Shown piece by piece: positions 22,272-30,455 of a stretch of DNA of 35,301 nt. Source of the stretch: Comamonadaceae bacterium (GTDB lineage Bacteria > Pseudomonadota > Gammaproteobacteria > Burkholderiales > Burkholderiaceae_C). Numbering within the stretch: the first letter of the stretch is position 1; every line of letters begins with the position of its first letter. The stretch lies in NCBI GenBank assembly GCA_947446885.1, contig CANFHZ010000016.1:1-35301 (forward strand), written 5' to 3'. Below the pieces are notes generated by a model that saw only the letters and a list, made by a program, of their open reading frames with translations, was not told where the DNA came from and ran no database searches. A program made the position numbers and the translations under genes.

Positions 22272-25200
22272 TTATTGCAGCTGCGTCCAGGCCTTCTCCA
22301 GCCGCTTCACGCTCACCGGCTGGGGCGTGCGCAACTCCTGGGCAAAAAAGCTCACACGTAATTCTTCCAGCAACCAGCGGAATTCGACCATGCGCTCGTC
22401 CACCGCGCCCTTGCGCTCCGCCACCAAGCGCCAATAGCGCTGTTCCAGCGGCCGGAGTTCGGCCAAGCGGGCGGCGTCACGGGCAGGGTCGGCGCGGTAT
22501 TTGTCCAGCCGCAGGCTGACCGCCTTGCAATAGCGCGCCAGATGCTGCAAACGATCCCAGGGTGTGACCAGCAAAAACTGCTTGCCGATCAAGCGCTGCA
22601 ACTGCTGCTGCGCGTCGGCGCAGGCCTCGGCAGCGTTTTTGCTGTCCTTTATCTTGCGGGCTGCGGCCGCGTATTCCAGCAGGACGATGCCGGCCACTCG
22701 CGCAACTTCGTTGGCAATCAGCGTCAGCCGCCCCCGGCCTTCTTCCAAACGGCGCTTGAAAGCCAGCGCATCCGTAGGCAATGGGTCGAGCAGAAATGCC
22801 CGGTCCACCGCCAGCGCGATGATCTGCGTGCGCAACTCTTCCAGCGTACCGCCAGCCTGCGCAGCACCCTCGCCGCGCCCCACCTGCATGTAAGAGACGG
22901 CCATTTTTTGCAGATCCGGAATATTCTTTTCCAGGTACTTGAGCGCATCCTTGATCTGCAAGGCGAACAAACGACGCAGGCCGGCACGGTGTTTGGCCGC
23001 CGCCGCATCGGGCTCGTCAAACACCTCGATGGTGACGGCGTCACCCGCATCCATGAGCGCCGGAAAACCGATCAAGGTCTGTGCTCCCTTGCGAATCTCC
23101 AGGAGCTCGGGCAGTTCACCAAAAGTCCAGGCAGTGAATCGTTGGTCCACGATAGCCGCCGCGCTGGGCGGCGCAGCGCGTGCCGAGCCCTGGGCCGCTG
23201 CGGGGCCGGGCGCGCGCTGTGCCTGGCCCGACGCGGGCGCAACAAAGGCTGTGCCCGGTCCACTCGTAGCGGCAGCCCCGCCCTGCCCCAGCTTGATCGA
23301 TGCAAGGGCTTGAAACGCCCCGCGCGCCTGCTTGCCCAGTTCGGCTTTGAGCGCGCCCAGGTTGCGGCTTTGGCCCAGCTGGCGGCCATGTTCGTCCACC
23401 ACCTTGAAGTTCATGAAAAAGTGCGGGCTCAGCATGTCGGCTTTCAGGTCGGCGCGCACGATGTCCAGCGCGGTGGCCTCGCGCACCAGCTTGAGAAGCG
23501 CATCCACCAAACTACCCGCGCCAAAGCGCTCGTCGCACAGGCTTGCCGCCATGCGCGCCGCCGTCTCGGGCAGGGGCACCAGGCGCGAACGGGGCCGCTG
23601 GTGCAGGGTTTTGAGCAGGGCTTGCACCTTGTCTTTCAGCATGCCCGGCACCAGCCATTCACCGCGCTCATCGTTGACCTGGTTGAGCACAAAGAGTGGC
23701 ACGGTCACCGTCACACCATCCAGCGCGTCGCCCGGCGCGTGCAGGTAGCTTGCCGTGCAGTCCACGCCACCTAAGCGAATGGTCTTGGGGAACATGGCGG
23801 TGGTGATGCCTGCTGCCTCATGGCGCATCAGCTCTTCGCGGGTCAGCAGCAAAAGCTGGGGCTGCTTTTTGACCTCTTCGCGGTACCAGCGCTCGCAGCT
23901 AAATCCGCTGCACACGTCAGCGGGCAGCTGCTGGTCGTAAAAGGCGTAAATCAGCTCTTCGTCCACCAGCACGTCCTGGCGGCGCGCCTTGTGTTCCAGT
24001 TCTTCGACTTGTTTGATGAGTTTCAGGTTGGCGGCCAGAAACGGCACCGGGCTATCCCACTGACCGGCCACCAGCGCCTCGCGGATAAACACCTCGCGCG
24101 CACCCGCCAGATCCACCCGGCCATAGTTCACCCGCCGCCCGCTGTAGACCACGATGCCATAGAGCGTGGCGCGCTCCAGCGCCACCACTTCGGCGGCCTT
24201 CTTTTCCCAGTGCGGGTCCAGCAACTGTTTTTTCAGCAAATGCCCGCCCACTTGCTCGATCCACTGGGGGTCGATGTTGGCAATCCCCCGACCAAACAGG
24301 CGGGTGGTTTCGACCAGCTCGGCCGCGACTATCCAACGCCCCGGCTTTTTGGCCAGATGCGCACCTGGGTGGGCAAAAAACTTAATGCTGCGCGCGCCCA
24401 GGTATTCGCCCTGCTGCCCCTCGCTTTCCACCTTGCAGCCCACATTACCCAAGAGCCCGGCCAGCATGGACATGTGCAGCTGCTCGTACGAAGCCGGCGT
24501 GGTGTTCAGCCGCCACTTGTGTTCAGCCACCACGGTGTGGAGCTGGCTGTGGATGTCTTTCCATTCGCGCAGGCGGCGCACGTTGACGAAGTTCTGGCGC
24601 AGCAGCTGCTCGTATTGGCGGTTGCTGAGTTTGTGGGGCGCAGGAGACATCGCGGGAAAGGGGGTCGGACCCCGATTTTGCGCGGCGAAACTCGGGCTCT
24701 GATCGCTTTTGCGTCGACCGTTGGGCGAATCGGGGTCAGAGCCCGATACGCCGGGATCTGACCCCGATTCGCCCAACCCCACCTTCCGCTCACCGCGCGC
24801 GTCGCTGATCCACTTCCACAACTTCAAATACCCGCTGAACTCGCTTTTCTCGTCATCAAACTTGGCATGTGCCTGGTCGGCTTGGGCTTGCATGTCCATG
24901 GGGCGGTCGCGCACGTCTTGCACGCTCAGAGCCGAGGCGATCACCAGCACTTCGTCGAGGGCATTTCGGCTGCGCGCTTCCAAAATCATGCGGCCCACAC
25001 GCGGATCCAGCGGCAGGCGCGCCAGCTCCTGGCCCAGGGGCGTGAGTTCGTTGGCCTCGTCCACCGCGCCCAACTCGGTCAGCAGCTGGTAACCGTCGGC
25101 AATGGCACGCCCGGACGGCCGCTCCAAAAACGGGAAGTCTTCCACCGCGCCCAAGCGCAGCGACTTCATCCGCAAAATCACGCCCGCCAGCGATGACCGC

Positions 25201-26441
25201 AGGATCTCCGGGTCGGTAAAGCGGTCGCGCCCGTCAAAGTCTTTTTGGTCAAACAGGCGGATGCAAATGCCGTCCGCCACCCGCCCGCAACGCCCGGCAC
25301 GCTGGTTGGCCGAACTCTGGCTGATCGGCTCCACCAGCAACTGCTCCACCTTGCTGCGAAAGCTGTAGCGCTTGATGCGCGCCGTGCCCGCGTCGATCAC
25401 ATAGCGGATGCCCGGCACCGTGAGCGAGGTCTCGGCCACGTTGGTCGCCAGCACCACGCGCCGCCCGGTGTGGCCGTCAAAAATGCGGTCCTGCTCGGCC
25501 GGGCTCAGGCGCGCAAACAGCGGCAGCACCTCGCAGCCGCGCATCACCGGCTGGTGGCTCAGGTGGCGGCGCAGATGGTCTGCCGCCTCGCGGATCTCGC
25601 GCTCGCCGGGCAAGAAAACCAGAATGTCGCCGCCCACCCCACCGCGCCACAACTCGTCCACGCCATCGGCGATCGCGTCGTTCAGGTCGTATTCGCGGCT
25701 TTCCTCAAACGGGCGGTAGCGCTGCTCCACCGGAAACATGCGGCCCGAAACCATGATGACCGGCGCGGGCGTCAGCTTGCGACCCTCGGGCGTGGGCTGC
25801 AAGCTGGCAAAGTGGTCGGCAAACCGCTGCGCGTCAATCGTGGCCGAGGTGACGATGATTTTGAGATCAGGGCGGCGCGGCAGGATCTGGCGCAGGTAAC
25901 CCAGCAAAAAGTCAATGTTCAGGCTGCGCTCGTGCGCCTCGTCGATGATGATGGTGTCGTAGGCGTTCAGCAGCGGATCGGTCTGCGTTTCGGCCAACAA
26001 AATGCCGTCGGTCATCAGCTTCACCGACGCGTCGCGCGAGAGCCGGTCCTGGAACCGCACCTTAAAGCCCACCACCTCGCCCAGCGGCGCCTTCAACTCC
26101 TCGGCAATCCGCTTGGCCACGCTGCTGGCCGCAATGCGCCGCGGCTGCGTGTGCCCGATCAGCTTGCCGCGCGGCGCGGGTCGACCATCGGCCAGAGTGG
26201 TCGGGTAATTGCACAAGCCCCGGCCCATGGCCAGGGCAATCTTGGGCAACTGCGTGGTTTTGCCCGAACCGGTTTCACCGCACACGATGATGACCTGGTG
26301 CGCCGCCAGCGCGGCCATGATCTCCTCGCGCTTGGCGGAGACGGGGAGGTCTTCTGGGAATTCGATGTGCGGGGGGGGACGGGACGGAGGGGCGATCACG
26401 GGCGAATTATCACATGACACGACTTCACGTGCTACACTCAT
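22272..26441 (-). CDS. hrpA: DEAH-box ATP-dependent RNA helicase HrpA
   Basis: 1389 residues; E. coli HrpA has 1300. The helicase core has GETGSGKTTQLPKI (about residues 55-68), HTQPRRIAA, DEAH (167-170), VTSATID and QRAGRCGR. The HA2, OB-fold and long HrpA-specific C-terminal DUF3418 regions follow. HrpA acts on RNA; in E. coli it helps rescue stalled ribosomes and process fimbrial mRNA. Residues about 555-594 are encoded by an in-frame cluster of inverted repeats that lengthens a linker. The N-terminus is uncertain: the ATG at 26441 lacks a clear ribosome-binding site and lies in the vapBC promoter region, and a GTG at 26399 is an alternative. Confidence 0.94.
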   Translation of the reverse strand: MSVAREVVSCDNSPVIAPPSRPPPHIEFPEDLPVSAKREEIMAALAAHQVIIVCGETGSGKTTQLPKIALAMGRGLCNYPTTLADGRPAPRGKLIGHTQPRRIAASSVAKRIAEELKAPLGEVVGFKVRFQDRLSRDASVKLMTDGILLAETQTDPLLNAYDTIIIDEAHERSLNIDFLLGYLRQILPRRPDLKIIVTSATIDAQRFADHFASLQPTPEGRKLTPAPVIMVSGRMFPVEQRYRPFEESREYDLNDAIADGVDELWRGGVGGDILVFLPGEREIREAADHLRRHLSHQPVMRGCEVLPLFARLSPAEQDRIFDGHTGRRVVLATNVAETSLTVPGIRYVIDAGTARIKRYSFRSKVEQLLVEPISQSSANQRAGRCGRVADGICIRLFDQKDFDGRDRFTDPEILRSSLAGVILRMKSLRLGAVEDFPFLERPSGRAIADGYQLLTELGAVDEANELTPLGQELARLPLDPRVGRMILEARSRNALDEVLVIASALSVQDVRDRPMDMQAQADQAHAKFDDEKSEFSGYLKLWKWISDARGERKVGLGESGSDPGVSGSDPDSPNGRRKSDQSPSFAAQNRGPTPFPAMSPAPHKLSNRQYEQLLRQNFVNVRRLREWKDIHSQLHTVVAEHKWRLNTTPASYEQLHMSMLAGLLGNVGCKVESEGQQGEYLGARSIKFFAHPGAHLAKKPGRWIVAAELVETTRLFGRGIANIDPQWIEQVGGHLLKKQLLDPHWEKKAAEVVALERATLYGIVVYSGRRVNYGRVDLAGAREVFIREALVAGQWDSPVPFLAANLKLIKQVEELEHKARRQDVLVDEELIYAFYDQQLPADVCSGFSCERWYREEVKKQPQLLLLTREELMRHEAAGITTAMFPKTIRLGGVDCTASYLHAPGDALDGVTVTVPLFVLNQVNDERGEWLVPGMLKDKVQALLKTLHQRPRSRLVPLPETAARMAASLCDERFGAGSLVDALLKLVREATALDIVRADLKADMLSPHFFMNFKVVDEHGRQLGQSRNLGALKAELGKQARGAFQALASIKLGQGGAAATSGPGTAFVAPASGQAQRAPGPAAAQGSARAAPPSAAAIVDQRFTAWTFGELPELLEIRKGAQTLIGFPALMDAGDAVTIEVFDEPDAAAAKHRAGLRRLFALQIKDALKYLEKNIPDLQKMAVSYMQVGRGEGAAQAGGTLEELRTQIIALAVDRAFLLDPLPTDALAFKRRLEEGRGRLTLIANEVARVAGIVLLEYAAAARKIKDSKNAAEACADAQQQLQRLIGKQFLLVTPWDRLQHLARYCKAVSLRLDKYRADPARDAARLAELRPLEQRYWRLVAERKGAVDERMVEFRWLLEELRVSFFAQELRTPQPVSVKRLEKAWTQLQ
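24661..24777. repeat. REP-like inverted-repeat cluster inside hrpA
   Basis: Four copies of a GGGGTCAGAGCCCGAT-like core alternate in orientation: about 24661-24676 (+), 24691-24705 (-), 24731-24747 (+) and 24753-24769 (-). The last two sit within a perfect 21-bp inverted repeat (24720-24740 and 24757-24777) around a 16-base loop. The block from 24661 to 24777 is 117 bases, exactly 39 codons, and keeps the hrpA frame open. It encodes a low-complexity linker with SGSDP repeats. GGGGTC(A/G)GA-type palindromes resemble REP elements mobilised by RAYT transposases; that link is from memory. Confidence 0.75.
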
Positions 26442-26448
26442 TCACATA
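26410..26448 (+). promoter_or_regulatory. Candidate vapBC operator/promoter
   Basis: Three TCAC(A/G)T(G/A) heptamers occur at 26410, 26425 and 26442. The first two also form an imperfect inverted repeat (CACATGA...TCACGTG). TACACT at 26433-26438 could be a -10 element. VapB-type antitoxins bind such repeats to autoregulate. The region overlaps the proposed start of hrpA on the other strand. No good -35 was found. Confidence 0.35.
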
Positions 26449-26466
26449 TCTTTGTGGAGATGCCCA

Positions 26467-26733
26467 ATGACCAACCTAACCATTTCGCTGGACGAAGCCA
26501 TTGTCCGCAAAGCCCGTATCCGTGCTATCGAAGAAGGCACTTCTGTCAGCGCCAAGGTACGGGAGTTTCTGGCGCAGTACGCGAAGGTCGACAGCGCAAG
26601 CGCCAACGCCTTGCCTGAACTGCCCATCTTCCAGGGAAGCGGCGGTTTACAACCGGGCATTGACCCCAGTAGCAACAAATCCATGCTGCAGGCGGCTGAC
26701 GACCTTGCGGCCATTGACGAGATCAACATGTGA
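26467..26733 (+). CDS. VapB-type ribbon-helix-helix antitoxin
   Basis: 88 residues from the ATG at 26467, with GGAGA upstream. The tracked ORF start at 26209 is inside antisense hrpA. The N-terminus LTISLDEAIVRKARIRAIEEGTS reads as a beta strand then helix of a CopG/RHH DNA-binding domain. The C-terminal tail, with a Pro/Gly-rich stretch followed by a short helix, would wrap the toxin. Its TGA overlaps the GTG start of the PIN-domain gene, the usual antitoxin-toxin coupling. Confidence 0.85.
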   Translation: MTNLTISLDEAIVRKARIRAIEEGTSVSAKVREFLAQYAKVDSASANALPELPIFQGSGGLQPGIDPSSNKSMLQAADDLAAIDEINM

Positions 26734-27164
26734 CCCCCGATGTCAATGTTTTGGTATCGGCATCCAGAGCCGACCACGCGCACCACCACATAGCCAACGC
26801 GTGGCTGCATTCCGCGCTGGAAGATGCACGCACCGGCGTGTCGCTTGGACTACTGGCACCTGTGGTCGCCAGCTATTTGCGCCTCGTGACGCACCCAAAA
26901 GTTTTCACCCAACCCACCCCAATCGCCACCGCCATTGCTTTTATCGACGCACTGCTACAGCGACCCGGCGTCGCCATGCTCACACCGCAAAACGAATGGG
27001 GAAATCTGAAGAAACTGTGCATAGATTTGAATCTACGCGACAACAAGATCCCGGACGCTTGGATTGCCGCCTGCGTGCTTGAGCGGCTGGAAACACTGGC
27101 GACCTTCGACCGGGATTTTGTTCGGCTGTTACCGGCGCAGCGGCTGGTGTTGCTCTCCAGTTAG
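26730..27164 (+). CDS. VapC-type PIN-domain ribonuclease toxin
   Basis: 144-residue PIN domain, GTG start overlapping the antitoxin stop (GTGA). Catalytic-type acidic residues are seen in DVNVLVSA (residue 4), IPDAWIAA and TFDRDF. The stretch LVTHPKVF marks the subfamily. The acidic residue usually found just before that stretch (S-E/D-L) appears replaced in LLAPVVASYLRL, which may be a subfamily trait. VapC toxins cleave tRNA or rRNA and are neutralised by VapB. The target is unknown. Confidence 0.85.
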   Translation: MTPDVNVLVSASRADHAHHHIANAWLHSALEDARTGVSLGLLAPVVASYLRLVTHPKVFTQPTPIATAIAFIDALLQRPGVAMLTPQNEWGNLKKLCIDLNLRDNKIPDAWIAACVLERLETLATFDRDFVRLLPAQRLVLLSS

Positions 27165-27214
27165 GCCGACGGCAAGTATGTTGCTGAGACTATCCCTTGG
27201 GCCTCAAGCACAAA

Positions 27215-28156
27215 TTAGACATACAGAGCTTCCAGCGCGGCCAACTTTTTCATCCAGTTTTCTCTGTTATCCGGGTCATTCACGTAATATTCATTTACGA
27301 ACTCGATAAAAACGTCCTTGGAACGTTCTTTCAATTTCCGGTGAATAGAATTTATTGTGTAAATGCCGTCCCTCCGGTTCGTCTGCTCGATTGCACATAG
27401 CTGTATAGCCGCCATACATCCAAGGAATCCCCGAAAACCGAATGGCGCATTCCACTCGATTACGGTACACAGCTTAGAAACGTCAAGCGGCCTTTTCTTT
27501 TCTTCGGATAGGACGCATGCAAGGATCAGTAAATTCCAGCGCAGTGGAGCTCTTTTTAGAAATCGTTCGACCACGTCGTCTCCAATAACCGGCTGTGACA
27601 CAGTGTCCCCTTGCTGCGTTGAAGGTTTGTCCATTGACTTAGATACATCTTCAAATTTGTTTTCCAATTGATCCATCCTCCCGGGAAAGCTCTCCGCGAG
27701 GTTCTTCAAAATGTCATTTTGTGATGAAAGCGCCTCAAGCGTCTCGTCCAATGAACGCTTGGTTCCAGACATTTCAATGGAAGCAGCTTTGACAAGCTCG
27801 TTGTTTTCGGCAGCCGTTTCGGTGCTCGACCTAGTTTGCTGAGCAAACCTCTCGATGTCGCTTCTTACTTGACGGACCTCCTCTGTCACCGTGTGAATAC
27901 TGCCGAGGCTACGGGACATGCCGTCGTTTGAGATAAAAGAGTAAAAAATCGCCACGACCCCGAGTAACAAAGAAGTCATCGTTGCAGCATTGCTGAGGTA
28001 GGCAGTGAAATCGCCCTTATCAGTCCACCTATCGGTTACCACGAACACGACGATCATCACCGCGATCAGTCCGCAATACCAAAAATGAAGCATGAGCCGC
28101 TCGTAATCTTTCTCTACAGACCGTGCATCTGACGCGGGTTTTTCAGTGGTTCGCAT
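27215..28156 (-). CDS. Unrecognised two-transmembrane coiled-coil protein downstream of a GEMM riboswitch
   Basis: I do not recognise this family. From the preferred start (MRTTEKP, 28156) it has 313 residues: a short cytoplasmic N-terminus, TM helices at about 24-41 and 57-75, a heptad-rich coiled coil at about 85-175, and a C-terminal globular region (about 193-313). The C-terminal region has helix and beta-hairpin alternation suggestive of a winged helix. The tracked start at 28240 lies inside the riboswitch, so it is rejected. GGA seven bases before the ATG is a weak ribosome-binding site. Base composition is visibly AT-richer than the neighbours, suggesting acquisition. It converges on vapC and follows the parE-type gene on the same strand. 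Confidence 0.75.
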   Translation of the reverse strand: MRTTEKPASDARSVEKDYERLMLHFWYCGLIAVMIVVFVVTDRWTDKGDFTAYLSNAATMTSLLLGVVAIFYSFISNDGMSRSLGSIHTVTEEVRQVRSDIERFAQQTRSSTETAAENNELVKAASIEMSGTKRSLDETLEALSSQNDILKNLAESFPGRMDQLENKFEDVSKSMDKPSTQQGDTVSQPVIGDDVVERFLKRAPLRWNLLILACVLSEEKKRPLDVSKLCTVIEWNAPFGFRGFLGCMAAIQLCAIEQTNRRDGIYTINSIHRKLKERSKDVFIEFVNEYYVNDPDNRENWMKKLAALEALYV

Positions 28157-28215
28157 ATCGACGTCCAAATTGCGTTTCGCCAAATCAGGAAATAGCAGAC
28201 AAGTAATCTTGTCCG

Positions 28216-28307
28216 TCGAATCTGGCGGCCCCGCTGACATTGCGCTGTGGTTAGCACCTTAGTTCGGTGGCTTTGCGTCGCCGGTTTTCACCGGGTTTGC
28301 CCTTCAA
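28216..28307 (-). promoter_or_regulatory. GEMM-I (cyclic-di-GMP-I) riboswitch
   Basis: Read on the minus strand, the RNA contains GGGCAAACC, then CCGGT-GAAA-ACCGG (a hairpin with the conserved GNRA tetraloop), then GACGCAAAGCCACCG. Next comes ACUAAG...AAUGU, a tetraloop receptor with a compensating change relative to CCUAAG...UAUGG, closed by GUGCU/AGCGC. The 3' element is CAGCGGGGCCGCC. All three ligand-contact positions known from the Vibrio Vc2 structure appear kept: G20 as the third G of GGGC, A47 in GCAAAG, and C92 in GCC. G at position 20 favours c-di-GMP over cGAMP. UUGAA/UUCGA may close the domain. It lies 60 bases before the preferred start of the two-TM protein gene. Confidence 0.92.
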
Positions 28308-28345
28308 TTTTTTATCCATCGGTCAAGGGCTGAACCGACGGGAAA

Positions 28346-28354
28346 AGCATAGCA
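28346..28354 (-). promoter_or_regulatory. Candidate extended -10 promoter for the riboswitch transcript
   Basis: Minus-strand TGCTATGCT matches an extended -10 (TGn plus TATGCT) and would start RNA near 28339, about 30 bases before the riboswitch. No clear -35 is visible. Read-through from the upstream toxin-antitoxin pair is also possible. Confidence 0.35.
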
Positions 28355-28383
28355 CAGTGATGTCTGCGGCTTAGCTGCCTTTT

Positions 28384-28686
28384 TTAGATCTCACCCTCGG
28401 AGTATCCCGACTCCCGTTGATGGCGAATGCGCGCCACCAGAACCAGATCGCGTACTTGGTCGAATTCGTAGCGCGCCAAATAACCGCTGCGTCTGCGCGA
28501 AATGATGAGCTCGCGCAGCCCACCTTCCACCGGCCTTCCGATGCCGGGCTGGTGCGTCAAAACGTGCAAAGCGTCAAAGATGAAATCCAACAATCCACCG
28601 GCCATCGGGTCTTCTGATTCGGCCAGAAATTCCTCTAGCCGCAGCAAGTCGTCGAATGACGCTTGGCTCAGAAATACACGCGTCAT
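28384..28686 (-). CDS. RelE/ParE-superfamily toxin
   Basis: 100 residues with the ParE/RelE plan: N-terminal helical hairpin (FDDLLRLEEFLAES), a second helix with HVLTHQPGIGRP, and strands GLRELIISRRRSGYLARYEFD and LVLVARIRHQRESGY. The terminal RHQRE-type segment is the usual conserved end. ParE members poison gyrase and RelE members cleave mRNA; the target cannot be decided here. It starts 5 bases after the antitoxin stop on the minus strand. Confidence 0.88.
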   Translation of the reverse strand: MTRVFLSQASFDDLLRLEEFLAESEDPMAGGLLDFIFDALHVLTHQPGIGRPVEGGLRELIISRRRSGYLARYEFDQVRDLVLVARIRHQRESGYSEGEI

Positions 28687-28691
28687 AGCCC

Positions 28692-29009
28692 TTAGCCCAT
28701 CGGCGTTGGCACAAGGTTTTTGGGCTTGGTTTGCAAACCTTCGCGGTGTTTGGACATTTCGGAGAAATACGCACGGACACTGCCGAGTTCATAGCCCACA
28801 CCGCTGACTTTCATATCGCTCAATGCGGCTTGCGAGTCCTGCGCAAATGCCTCACGCAGCCGTGTGCGGTGAACCGACTCGGACAGCGTTTGCACCATGA
28901 ATGCATGAAGGCTGATGCCTGCTTTCTGCGCGTCCAATTCCAGCTGGGTTTTGAGCGCTGCGGGCAACTTCAAACTGGTGGGTTTGCTTTGCGGGACGGT
29001 GGTGGACAT
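28692..29009 (-). CDS. Ribbon-helix-helix (Arc/CopG-type) antitoxin
   Basis: 105 residues. SLKLPAALKTQLELDAQKAGISLHAFMVQ is a typical beta-helix-helix RHH DNA-binding domain near the N-terminus. A helical then unstructured C-terminal tail would bind the toxin. It precedes the ParE-type toxin gene in the same transcript. An inverted repeat GGTAGT...ACTACC lies about 20-40 bases upstream of its start and is a likely autoregulatory site. Confidence 0.85.
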   Translation of the reverse strand: MSTTVPQSKPTSLKLPAALKTQLELDAQKAGISLHAFMVQTLSESVHRTRLREAFAQDSQAALSDMKVSGVGYELGSVRAYFSEMSKHREGLQTKPKNLVPTPMG

Positions 29010-29028
29010 GTCATGCTCCGGCTGGAAA

Positions 29029-29048
29029 GGTAGTCAAATATCACTACC
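29029..29048 (-). promoter_or_regulatory. Inverted-repeat operator for the ParE-type module
   Basis: GGTAGT and ACTACC form a perfect 6-bp inverted repeat separated by 8 A/T-rich bases. On the minus strand, TGATATTTG between the arms could be an extended -10, so antitoxin binding would block transcription. argA starts 58 bases away on the other strand. Confidence 0.5.
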
Positions 29049-29105
29049 AATGAAATTTACCATACCGCTTTCGCTACATTAGCCCCTGAACAACCCACCC
29101 CACCC

Positions 29106-30455
29106 ATGACCTCTGTCTTCAACTTCACGTTCGTGCCTTGGTTCCGTTCCGTGGCGCCGTACATCCACAAGTTCCGCAACCAGACCTTTGTGGTGGGCAT
29201 GGCGGGCGAGGCGATTGCGGCGGGGAAGCTGGCGCATATTGCGCAAGACCTGGCGATGATCCAGGCCATGGGCGTGAAGATTGTGCTGGTGCACGGCTTC
29301 AGGCCGCAGGTCAACGAGCAGTTGCAGGCCAAAGGCCATGTGCCCAAGTATTCGCACGGCATCCGCATCACCGACGAGGTGGCGCTGGACTGCGCGCAAG
29401 AGGCTGCCGGGCAGCTGCGCTACGAGATTGAAGCCGCCTTCAGCCAGGGCCTGCCCAACACGCCCATGGCCGATTCCACGGTGCGGGTAATCAGCGGCAA
29501 CTTCCTGACCGCACGGCCGGTGGGCATTGTGGACGGCGTGGATTTTCAGCACTCGGGCGTGGTACGCAAGGTGGACACGGCGGGCATCAGCAAGCTGCTG
29601 GACATGGGCGCCATGCCCCTGCTCTCGCCCTTTGGCTTCTCGCCCACCGGCGAGGCCTTCAATCTGGCGATGGAAGAGGTGGCGACCTCGGTGGCCGTGG
29701 CGCTGCAGGCGGACAAGCTGATTTTTCTGACCGAGGTGCCCGGCATCCGCACCCGCGCGCTCGAAGCCGAGTCAGAAGACAACCCGATTGACACCGAGCT
29801 GCCCCTGGCCGCCGCCGAAGAGCTGCTGGCCGAAATCCCCCCGGCCAAACTGCCCAGTGACCCGGGCTTTTACCTGCAGCACTGCGTCAAAGCCTGCAAG
29901 GAAGGCGTGGAGCGCAGCCACATCATTCCGTTTGCGGTGGACGGTGCGATTCTGCTGGAGGTGTATGTGCACGACGGCATCGGCACCATGGTCGTGGACG
30001 AAAAACTCGAAGAATTGCGCGAAGCGGGTGAGGACGACGTGGGCGGCATCTTGCAACTGATTGCGCCGTTTGAGGAAGACGGTACGCTGGTCAAACGCAG
30101 CCGCACCGAGATCGAGCGCGATATCGGCAACTACACGGTGATTGAGCACGACGGCGTCATCTTCGCCTGCGCTGCGCTCTACCCCTACCCCGAAACCCGG
30201 ACTGCCGAGATGGCCGCGCTCACCGTCAGCCCCGACGTGCAGGGCCAGGGTGATGGCGAACGGGTACTCAAGCGCATAGAACAACGGGCGCGCGCCGCCG
30301 GGCTGGACAGTATTTTTGTGCTCAGCACCCGCACCAGCCATTGGTTCATCAAACGCGGCTTCATCCAGGCCGACCCCGACTGGCTGCCCGAGGCCCGCAA
30401 GCGCAAATACAACTGGGACCGCAAGAGTTTGGTGCTGGTGAAGAAGTTGGGCTGA
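29106..30455 (+). CDS. argA: Amino-acid N-acetyltransferase (N-acetylglutamate synthase)
   Basis: First step of arginine synthesis: acetyl-CoA plus glutamate gives N-acetylglutamate. The 449-residue protein has an N-terminal amino-acid-kinase-like domain (about 20-290, with VGMAGEAI and VLVHGFRPQVN). A C-terminal GNAT domain (about 310-440, with AALTVSPDVQGQGDGERVL) follows. The kinase-like domain normally carries arginine feedback inhibition. It ends one base before the convergent dsbB stop. The start follows directly after the toxin-antitoxin island, so the promoter is in the 96-base gap. Confidence 0.95.
   Translation: MTSVFNFTFVPWFRSVAPYIHKFRNQTFVVGMAGEAIAAGKLAHIAQDLAMIQAMGVKIVLVHGFRPQVNEQLQAKGHVPKYSHGIRITDEVALDCAQEAAGQLRYEIEAAFSQGLPNTPMADSTVRVISGNFLTARPVGIVDGVDFQHSGVVRKVDTAGISKLLDMGAMPLLSPFGFSPTGEAFNLAMEEVATSVAVALQADKLIFLTEVPGIRTRALEAESEDNPIDTELPLAAAEELLAEIPPAKLPSDPGFYLQHCVKACKEGVERSHIIPFAVDGAILLEVYVHDGIGTMVVDEKLEELREAGEDDVGGILQLIAPFEEDGTLVKRSRTEIERDIGNYTVIEHDGVIFACAALYPYPETRTAEMAALTVSPDVQGQGDGERVLKRIEQRARAAGLDSIFVLSTRTSHWFIKRGFIQADPDWLPEARKRKYNWDRKSLVLVKKLG

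Follow-up and report, generated by a model that had tools for sequence, protein, structure and literature searches.

Exchangeable, probably defensive cargo behind a resident c-di-GMP riboswitch leader in a Comamonadaceae chromosome

Results

Architecture of the argA-hrpA island

The window, the whole stretch of 35,301 nucleotides analysed here (positions 1 to 35,301 of contig CANFHZ010000016.1, assembly GCA_947446885.1), comes from a Comamonadaceae bacterium. Between a hrpA-type helicase gene and argA it carries a small island, in which the gene for a 313-aa protein, P0001, stands directly behind a riboswitch-bearing leader. The features of this region are:

22272-26441, (-), hrpA-type helicase, a conserved flank of the slot (open reading frame)
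26467-26733, (+), VapB-like (RHH/DUF6364) antitoxin in the island (Pfam DUF6364, E 7e-7)
26730-27164, (+), VapC-family PIN toxin in the island (TIGR00028, E 2e-27, above cut-off)
27215-28156, (-), P0001, the cargo gene, 313 aa, two-TM, coiled-coil and winged-helix-like (open reading frame)
27218-27589, (-), C-terminal winged-helix-like domain of P0001, residues 190-313 (AF2; weak Foldseek matches)
27635-27910, (-), coiled coil of P0001, residues 83-174 (single long predicted helix; heptad periodicity)
27932-28093, (-), two TM helices of P0001, residues about 22-41 and 53-75 (hydropathy, with peaks near 21-41 and 53-75; predicted helices 9-44 and 50-75)
28154-28156, (-), leader start codon, identical with the ATG of P0001 (homology to the same site of genome G443, which holds a different cargo, ends exactly there)
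28196-28215, (-), terminator-like hairpin of the expression platform (paired in 95% of cells over 30 leaders)
28221-28311, (-), c-di-GMP-I riboswitch aptamer (RF01051, 70.6 bits, E 4.5e-12)
28316-28341, (-), 5' leader hairpin, helix 1 (alignment columns 23-30/40-47, 93% paired, three pairs changed on both sides)
28346-28354, (-), putative extended -10 element TGCTATGCT (conserved at the leader 5' end; from the leader alignment)
28384-28686, (-), ParE toxin of a resident toxin-antitoxin pair (Pfam ParE_toxin, E 2e-9; at the site in most leader-bearing genomes)
28692-29009, (-), small antitoxin-like protein (HicB/RHH-like), partner of ParE (weak HicB match only; conserved with ParE at the site)
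29106-30455, (+), argA, the other conserved flank (open reading frame; 86-98% identical across the genus; name from sequence reading)

P0001 thus lies between two toxin-antitoxin modules, VapBC on one side and an RHH protein with ParE on the other, and is AT-richer than its surroundings (47.7% GC versus 61.9% for the window, 64.3% for hrpA and 63.2% for argA), both as the initial annotation had described. An in-frame 341-aa open reading frame from 28240 was rejected as the gene: its start falls within the aptamer, and it is the leader start codon that is conserved instead. By inspection, an indel in the genome's other leader copy disrupts the frame upstream of this codon. Within hrpA, at window positions 24700-24800, there is a low-complexity, repeat-like insertion (GESGSDP...GSDPDSP).

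The predicted architecture of two TM helices, a long coiled coil and a compact C-terminal domain was borne out by hydropathy, by the predicted helix 83-174 and by AF2 (pLDDT 89.7). The coil is 92 residues long with a strong hydrophobic period of 3.5 residues, and one of its heptad positions reads IVITAVMLLLFLV. AF2 modelling of residues 187-313 by themselves, with two homologues included, gave the element order H-H-H-H-b-b-H-H (pLDDT 89.7, pTM 0.84). This contains the H-H-H-b-b topology of a winged helix and agrees with the earlier guess at such a fold; the top Foldseek matches were likewise MarR/ArsR winged helices, although weak ones (best TM-score by target about 0.55-0.60, no E <0.001).

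As had been anticipated, P0001 matched no family above cut-off in Pfam, NCBIfam or PADLOC. Among the PADLOC defence profiles the best match (E 0.003) covered the coil only, and no recognised defence domain was found; a sequence search of the PDB returned coiled coils only. Weak Pfam matches to Prominin, tape measure and exocyst proteins were discarded as coiled-coil noise. The sole sub-threshold link of note was to phrog_32514 (residues 19-137, E 2e-7). Like ZorA of the Zorya system, P0001 has a long coiled coil behind a membrane anchor, but it aligns with ZorA by the coil only (residues 86-185, 18.4 bits versus a cut-off of 190) and the MotA/ExbB channel domain is absent.

P0001 was found in its own genome only among 300 genomes of the order and 103 of the genus, and in no plasmid, phage or viral contig searched. 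Only two distinct relatives were found, one in Rubrivivax albus (L003, 50-51% identity) and one in a Comamonas metagenome-assembled genome (L004, 31%); a further hit, in G334, lies on a contig equal in length to the Rubrivivax one (4223 bases) and probably represents that genome again. The Rubrivivax homologue (L003:1-4223) sits within an integron-type cassette array of attC-type repeats, with repeat families D1-D6 and boundaries GCCTAAC...CGTTAGGC, as expected of an integron cassette. Neither homologue is adjacent to the toxin-antitoxin pairs of the window. A frame beside the Comamonas homologue (SCSFAFFACTSKKR..., L004:6001-6739) resembles what we take to be a dispersed Comamonadaceae repeat.

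A c-di-GMP-I riboswitch upstream of P0001

The riboswitch that had been suspected upstream of P0001 was recovered as a full-length match to RF01051 (model positions 1-87), scoring 70.6 bits where the cut-off is 35. Across 30 aligned leaders the 5' hairpin covaries, the aptamer is intact, and both a hairpin platform and an RBS region can be recognised; the proposed pairs fit in 94% of cells, compared with at most 47% when the partners are slid. The ligand-contact G at alignment column 65 is a G in 30 of 30 leaders; from the Rfam alignment we take it to be the equivalent of Vc2 G20. A consensus promoter scan of the window leader gave no full promoter. Three GGDEF genes are present in the genome, so c-di-GMP is plausibly made. 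By these marks the window leader is a genuine c-di-GMP-I riboswitch, with ligand binding predicted. It shares with the RF01051 (GEMM) class a full-length aptamer, the conserved ligand-contact core and a position 5' of a coding gene.

A leader family at fixed chromosomal sites

A DNA search with the leader across 103 genomes of the genus gave long matches in 24 of them, with up to six per genome. Altogether this leader of ~200 nt occurs in ~50 copies at several fixed chromosomal sites, and it accounts for nearly all c-di-GMP-I riboswitches in those 24 genomes. The only other c-di-GMP-I riboswitch of the window's own genome has a leader 86% identical to that of the window over 199 nt. No copy was found in plasmids or phages. 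The recurrent sites, whose flanking genes are named from sequence reading, are the argA/hrpA interval and positions beside dusA, uvrA, a PfkB-type kinase gene and a histidine-kinase gene. Some loci (L115, L125, L141, L148 and L149) have tandem leaders 0.8-2.1 kb apart; at the uvrA site, several tandem-leader loci hold a VOC/glyoxalase and GNAT pair between the leaders.

In eight genomes of the genus without a leader between argA and hrpA the gap is 86-98 bp, and with a leader it is 1.7-3.3 kb. This interval has the conserved flanks, the empty site in relatives and the variable defence cargo of a defence hotspot. In genome G463 the same site (L153:6777-6831) holds a leader remnant, the 5' 55 nt only at 96% identity, from which aptamer and cargo are gone and which is followed by a PIN toxin.

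To compare alleles of one site, we used pairwise blastn and counted positions from the aptamer start. Homology between alleles is lost in the stretch from the end of the aptamer (+92) to shortly after the start codon, in most cases at +127 to +160; two allele pairs break later, at +169 and +204. Beyond the breakpoint there is a differing gene, and then homology again from the flanking gene. Between the window and G443, homology runs from -1497 to +157, where +157 is the G of the ATG, and several cargo genes, P0001 among them, are joined to the leader precisely at its start codon. Across 28 leaders from five sites, the nearest relative of a leader was one from the same site in 27 cases, whatever gene followed, and the within-site excess of leader identity was matched by none of 5000 permutations. 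This clustering by site rejects a leader that travels with its cargo, as do leaders that head DUF2971 genes at three sites and are only 73-77% identical. Overall, these comparisons show a leader that remains at its site and a gene behind it that is replaced.

Cargo of the leader

The second leader of the window's genome, on contig C23 (L009:7641-9656) beside dusA, heads a complete PD-T4-2 system, with subunits A and B at E 3e-135 and 3e-39, which starts about 200 nt beyond the leader start codon. PD-T4-2 is an anti-phage system from a functional selection in E. coli (PMC9519451); it has no sequence family in common with P0001. Depending on the genome, the dusA site carries PD-T4-2, an MTase-Mrr fusion or DUF2971, and the argA-hrpA site carries P0001, DUF2971, BrnT/BrnA, a 181-aa protein that matches PDC-S48 weakly, or membrane or unknown proteins.

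Strong PADLOC matches among the leader cargo include a DRT-type reverse transcriptase (RT_UG14, E 2e-195), PDC-S19/DUF3644 (2e-119), bSEFIR (3e-77), an MTase (8e-68), PDC-S20/KAP NTPase (9e-59), an NsnB/AriA/OLD-like AAA protein (4e-33) and PDC-S31/DUF2971 (3e-26 and 2e-22); further domains are BrnT, Mrr_cat and Schlafen AlbA_2. An E value of 1e-20 was reached by 10 of 30 cargo open reading frames, from nine loci, in three scans of which the first ten frames were chosen as defensive-looking, so that this share is biased. Since two thirds of the scanned cargo (20 of 30) had no strong match and some of it looks metabolic (VOC/glyoxalase, GNAT), the slot is not exclusively defensive. As a control, we took the 30 top-scoring genes behind c-di-GMP-I riboswitches in other genera of the family. 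These encode S8 proteases, Ig-like proteins, GGDEF/EAL and PilZ proteins and spore-coat-U-like (SCPU) proteins, and their PADLOC matches were to subtilase and weak IetS models only. Judged by these profile matches, the leader cargo is rich in known or candidate anti-phage genes. Whereas the known and control targets of RF01051 are surface, secreted or c-di-GMP-turnover genes, those found here are exchangeable and often defensive.

Discussion

P0001 as the current occupant of a riboswitch slot

We read P0001 as the current, exchangeable cargo of a resident c-di-GMP-riboswitch slot, and probably as a defensive one, an activity that we infer; we give this reading a probability of about 0.62. Because neither homologue has a riboswitch, we assign the riboswitch to the slot rather than to the P0001 protein family. 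The initial annotation had proposed to test homologues for co-occurrence with GEMM riboswitches or with defence genes, and had named homologues scattered without any riboswitch as evidence against its view. Taken literally, the two homologues are such a case. The partner of the riboswitch is instead the chromosomal slot with its changing defence cargo, a pattern that a single window could not reveal. Of the roles then suggested, namely a signalling adaptor, a defence effector or a surface-lifestyle factor, the defence effector is best supported, because of the cargo that the riboswitch leader keeps and not because of the homologues of P0001.

The main competing account is that these are ordinary defence hotspots, whose islands exchange by homologous recombination in the flanks, with the leader merely the innermost conserved flank and c-di-GMP control incidental. 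Conserved flanks with cargo turnover are typical of hotspots, part of the cargo is non-defensive, and some of it begins well past the leader start codon, as PD-T4-2 does. However, the same leader occurs at several unrelated sites with its aptamer intact and its ligand-contact G invariant in all 30 leaders, and several cargo genes join it at the start codon to the nucleotide, which makes this account unlikely, if still a serious one. We think it less probable again that c-di-GMP regulates P0001 as a surface or lifestyle factor, such as a membrane-bound regulator of attachment or motility, and that it is not a defence protein. Most c-di-GMP-I riboswitch targets are surface or lifestyle factors, the riboswitches elsewhere in the family head secreted protease, fimbrial, GGDEF and PilZ genes, and a winged helix suggests DNA binding. 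Yet at these same sites the genus has defence genes behind leaders of this family, and P0001, being rare, AT-rich, patchy and housed in an integron-type array in Rubrivivax, behaves like an accessory gene.

The position of P0001 between two toxin-antitoxin pairs, together with BrnT as cargo of the same site in another genome, could also mean that it is a toxin-antitoxin or island-stabilising component working with the neighbouring VapBC or ParE pairs. P0001 is, however, on the strand opposite to VapBC and transcribed separately from a leader of its own; whatever the cargo, ParE and its partner remain in place, and the pairs are missing beside both homologues. We therefore regard this as improbable, the least likely of the three alternatives.

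A possible mechanism

In the reading that we prefer, P0001 occupies a slot whose leader would act as one unit of a putative -10 element, a hairpin, a c-di-GMP-I aptamer, a terminator-like hairpin, an RBS and a start codon, and the slot would place newly acquired defence genes under c-di-GMP control. In the RNAalifold structure, the 5' strand of the aptamer, including the ligand-contact G, pairs with a conserved CUUUC tract, which alternatively pairs with the Shine-Dalgarno sequence in 86% of cells of the leader alignment. Ligand binding could free the CUUUC tract and so mask the Shine-Dalgarno sequence, such that c-di-GMP would repress the cargo. From this platform pairing we lean slightly towards cargo being off at high and on at low c-di-GMP. 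We put this direction at barely better than even because the window copy retains only part of the helix (4 of 6 pairs, by inspection); the helix also shows little covariation.

With less assurance than for c-di-GMP control, P0001 may be a membrane-anchored defence effector. Its two TM helices would tether it and its coil would oligomerise, while the cytoplasmic winged-helix domain might sense a phage cue, DNA or a phage protein, and trigger membrane damage or growth arrest. More tentatively, and at somewhat under even odds, we propose that incoming defence genes without a promoter enter the slot at the start codon of the leader, through recombination in the leader and in the flanking gene, and would gain second-messenger control at once. 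The slot would then be the counterpart of an integron, RNA-gated and without an integrase, and P0001 would be a new defence effector with a membrane anchor and a winged helix.

Relation to known systems

The slot resembles an integron in pairing a resident expression leader with interchangeable promoterless cargo. An integron origin of the window slot was nonetheless rejected, since there is no intI above cut-off in its genome (2 of the 24 leader genomes have one) and there are no attC-like direct repeats in the island (26300-29200). With chromosomal defence hotspots it shares small islands of changing defence genes at argA/hrpA, dusA, uvrA and other fixed genes. It differs in that a resident riboswitch leader supplies a putative promoter, RBS and start codon, and in that homology breaks at the platform or the start codon.

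The nearest precedent is the set of type I toxin-antitoxin modules in C. difficile prophages that are associated with the c-di-GMP riboswitches cdi1_4 and cdi1_5 (PMC6563280). In both cases c-di-GMP-I riboswitches stand beside survival genes of mobile elements, but there the riboswitch is tied to an antitoxin RNA in prophages, whereas in the present case it serves many different chromosomal defence genes as their 5' leader. Searches of open-access full text turned up no report that connects a c-di-GMP riboswitch with antiphage genes.

Most of the costly defence genes of bacteria have no known regulator. If our reading is correct, a leader common to PD-T4-2, a DRT-type reverse transcriptase, bSEFIR and others would be direct evidence of defence wired to the c-di-GMP lifestyle signal, and thereby a new bacterial route linking phage defence to such a signal. 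One leader with many cargo genes would make a simple test system. The leader may also serve as a search handle, by which the orphan genes behind it, P0001 and several others included, become defence candidates. A recurrent 215-aa frame (MSAQAT...PFLRALVAGGW), which may not be a protein, follows four leaders (L125, L126, L128 and L131). At L139:7059-7721 the gene behind the leader encodes a LuxR-type regulator (GerE, E 2e-18), which may have a control function rather than an effector one.
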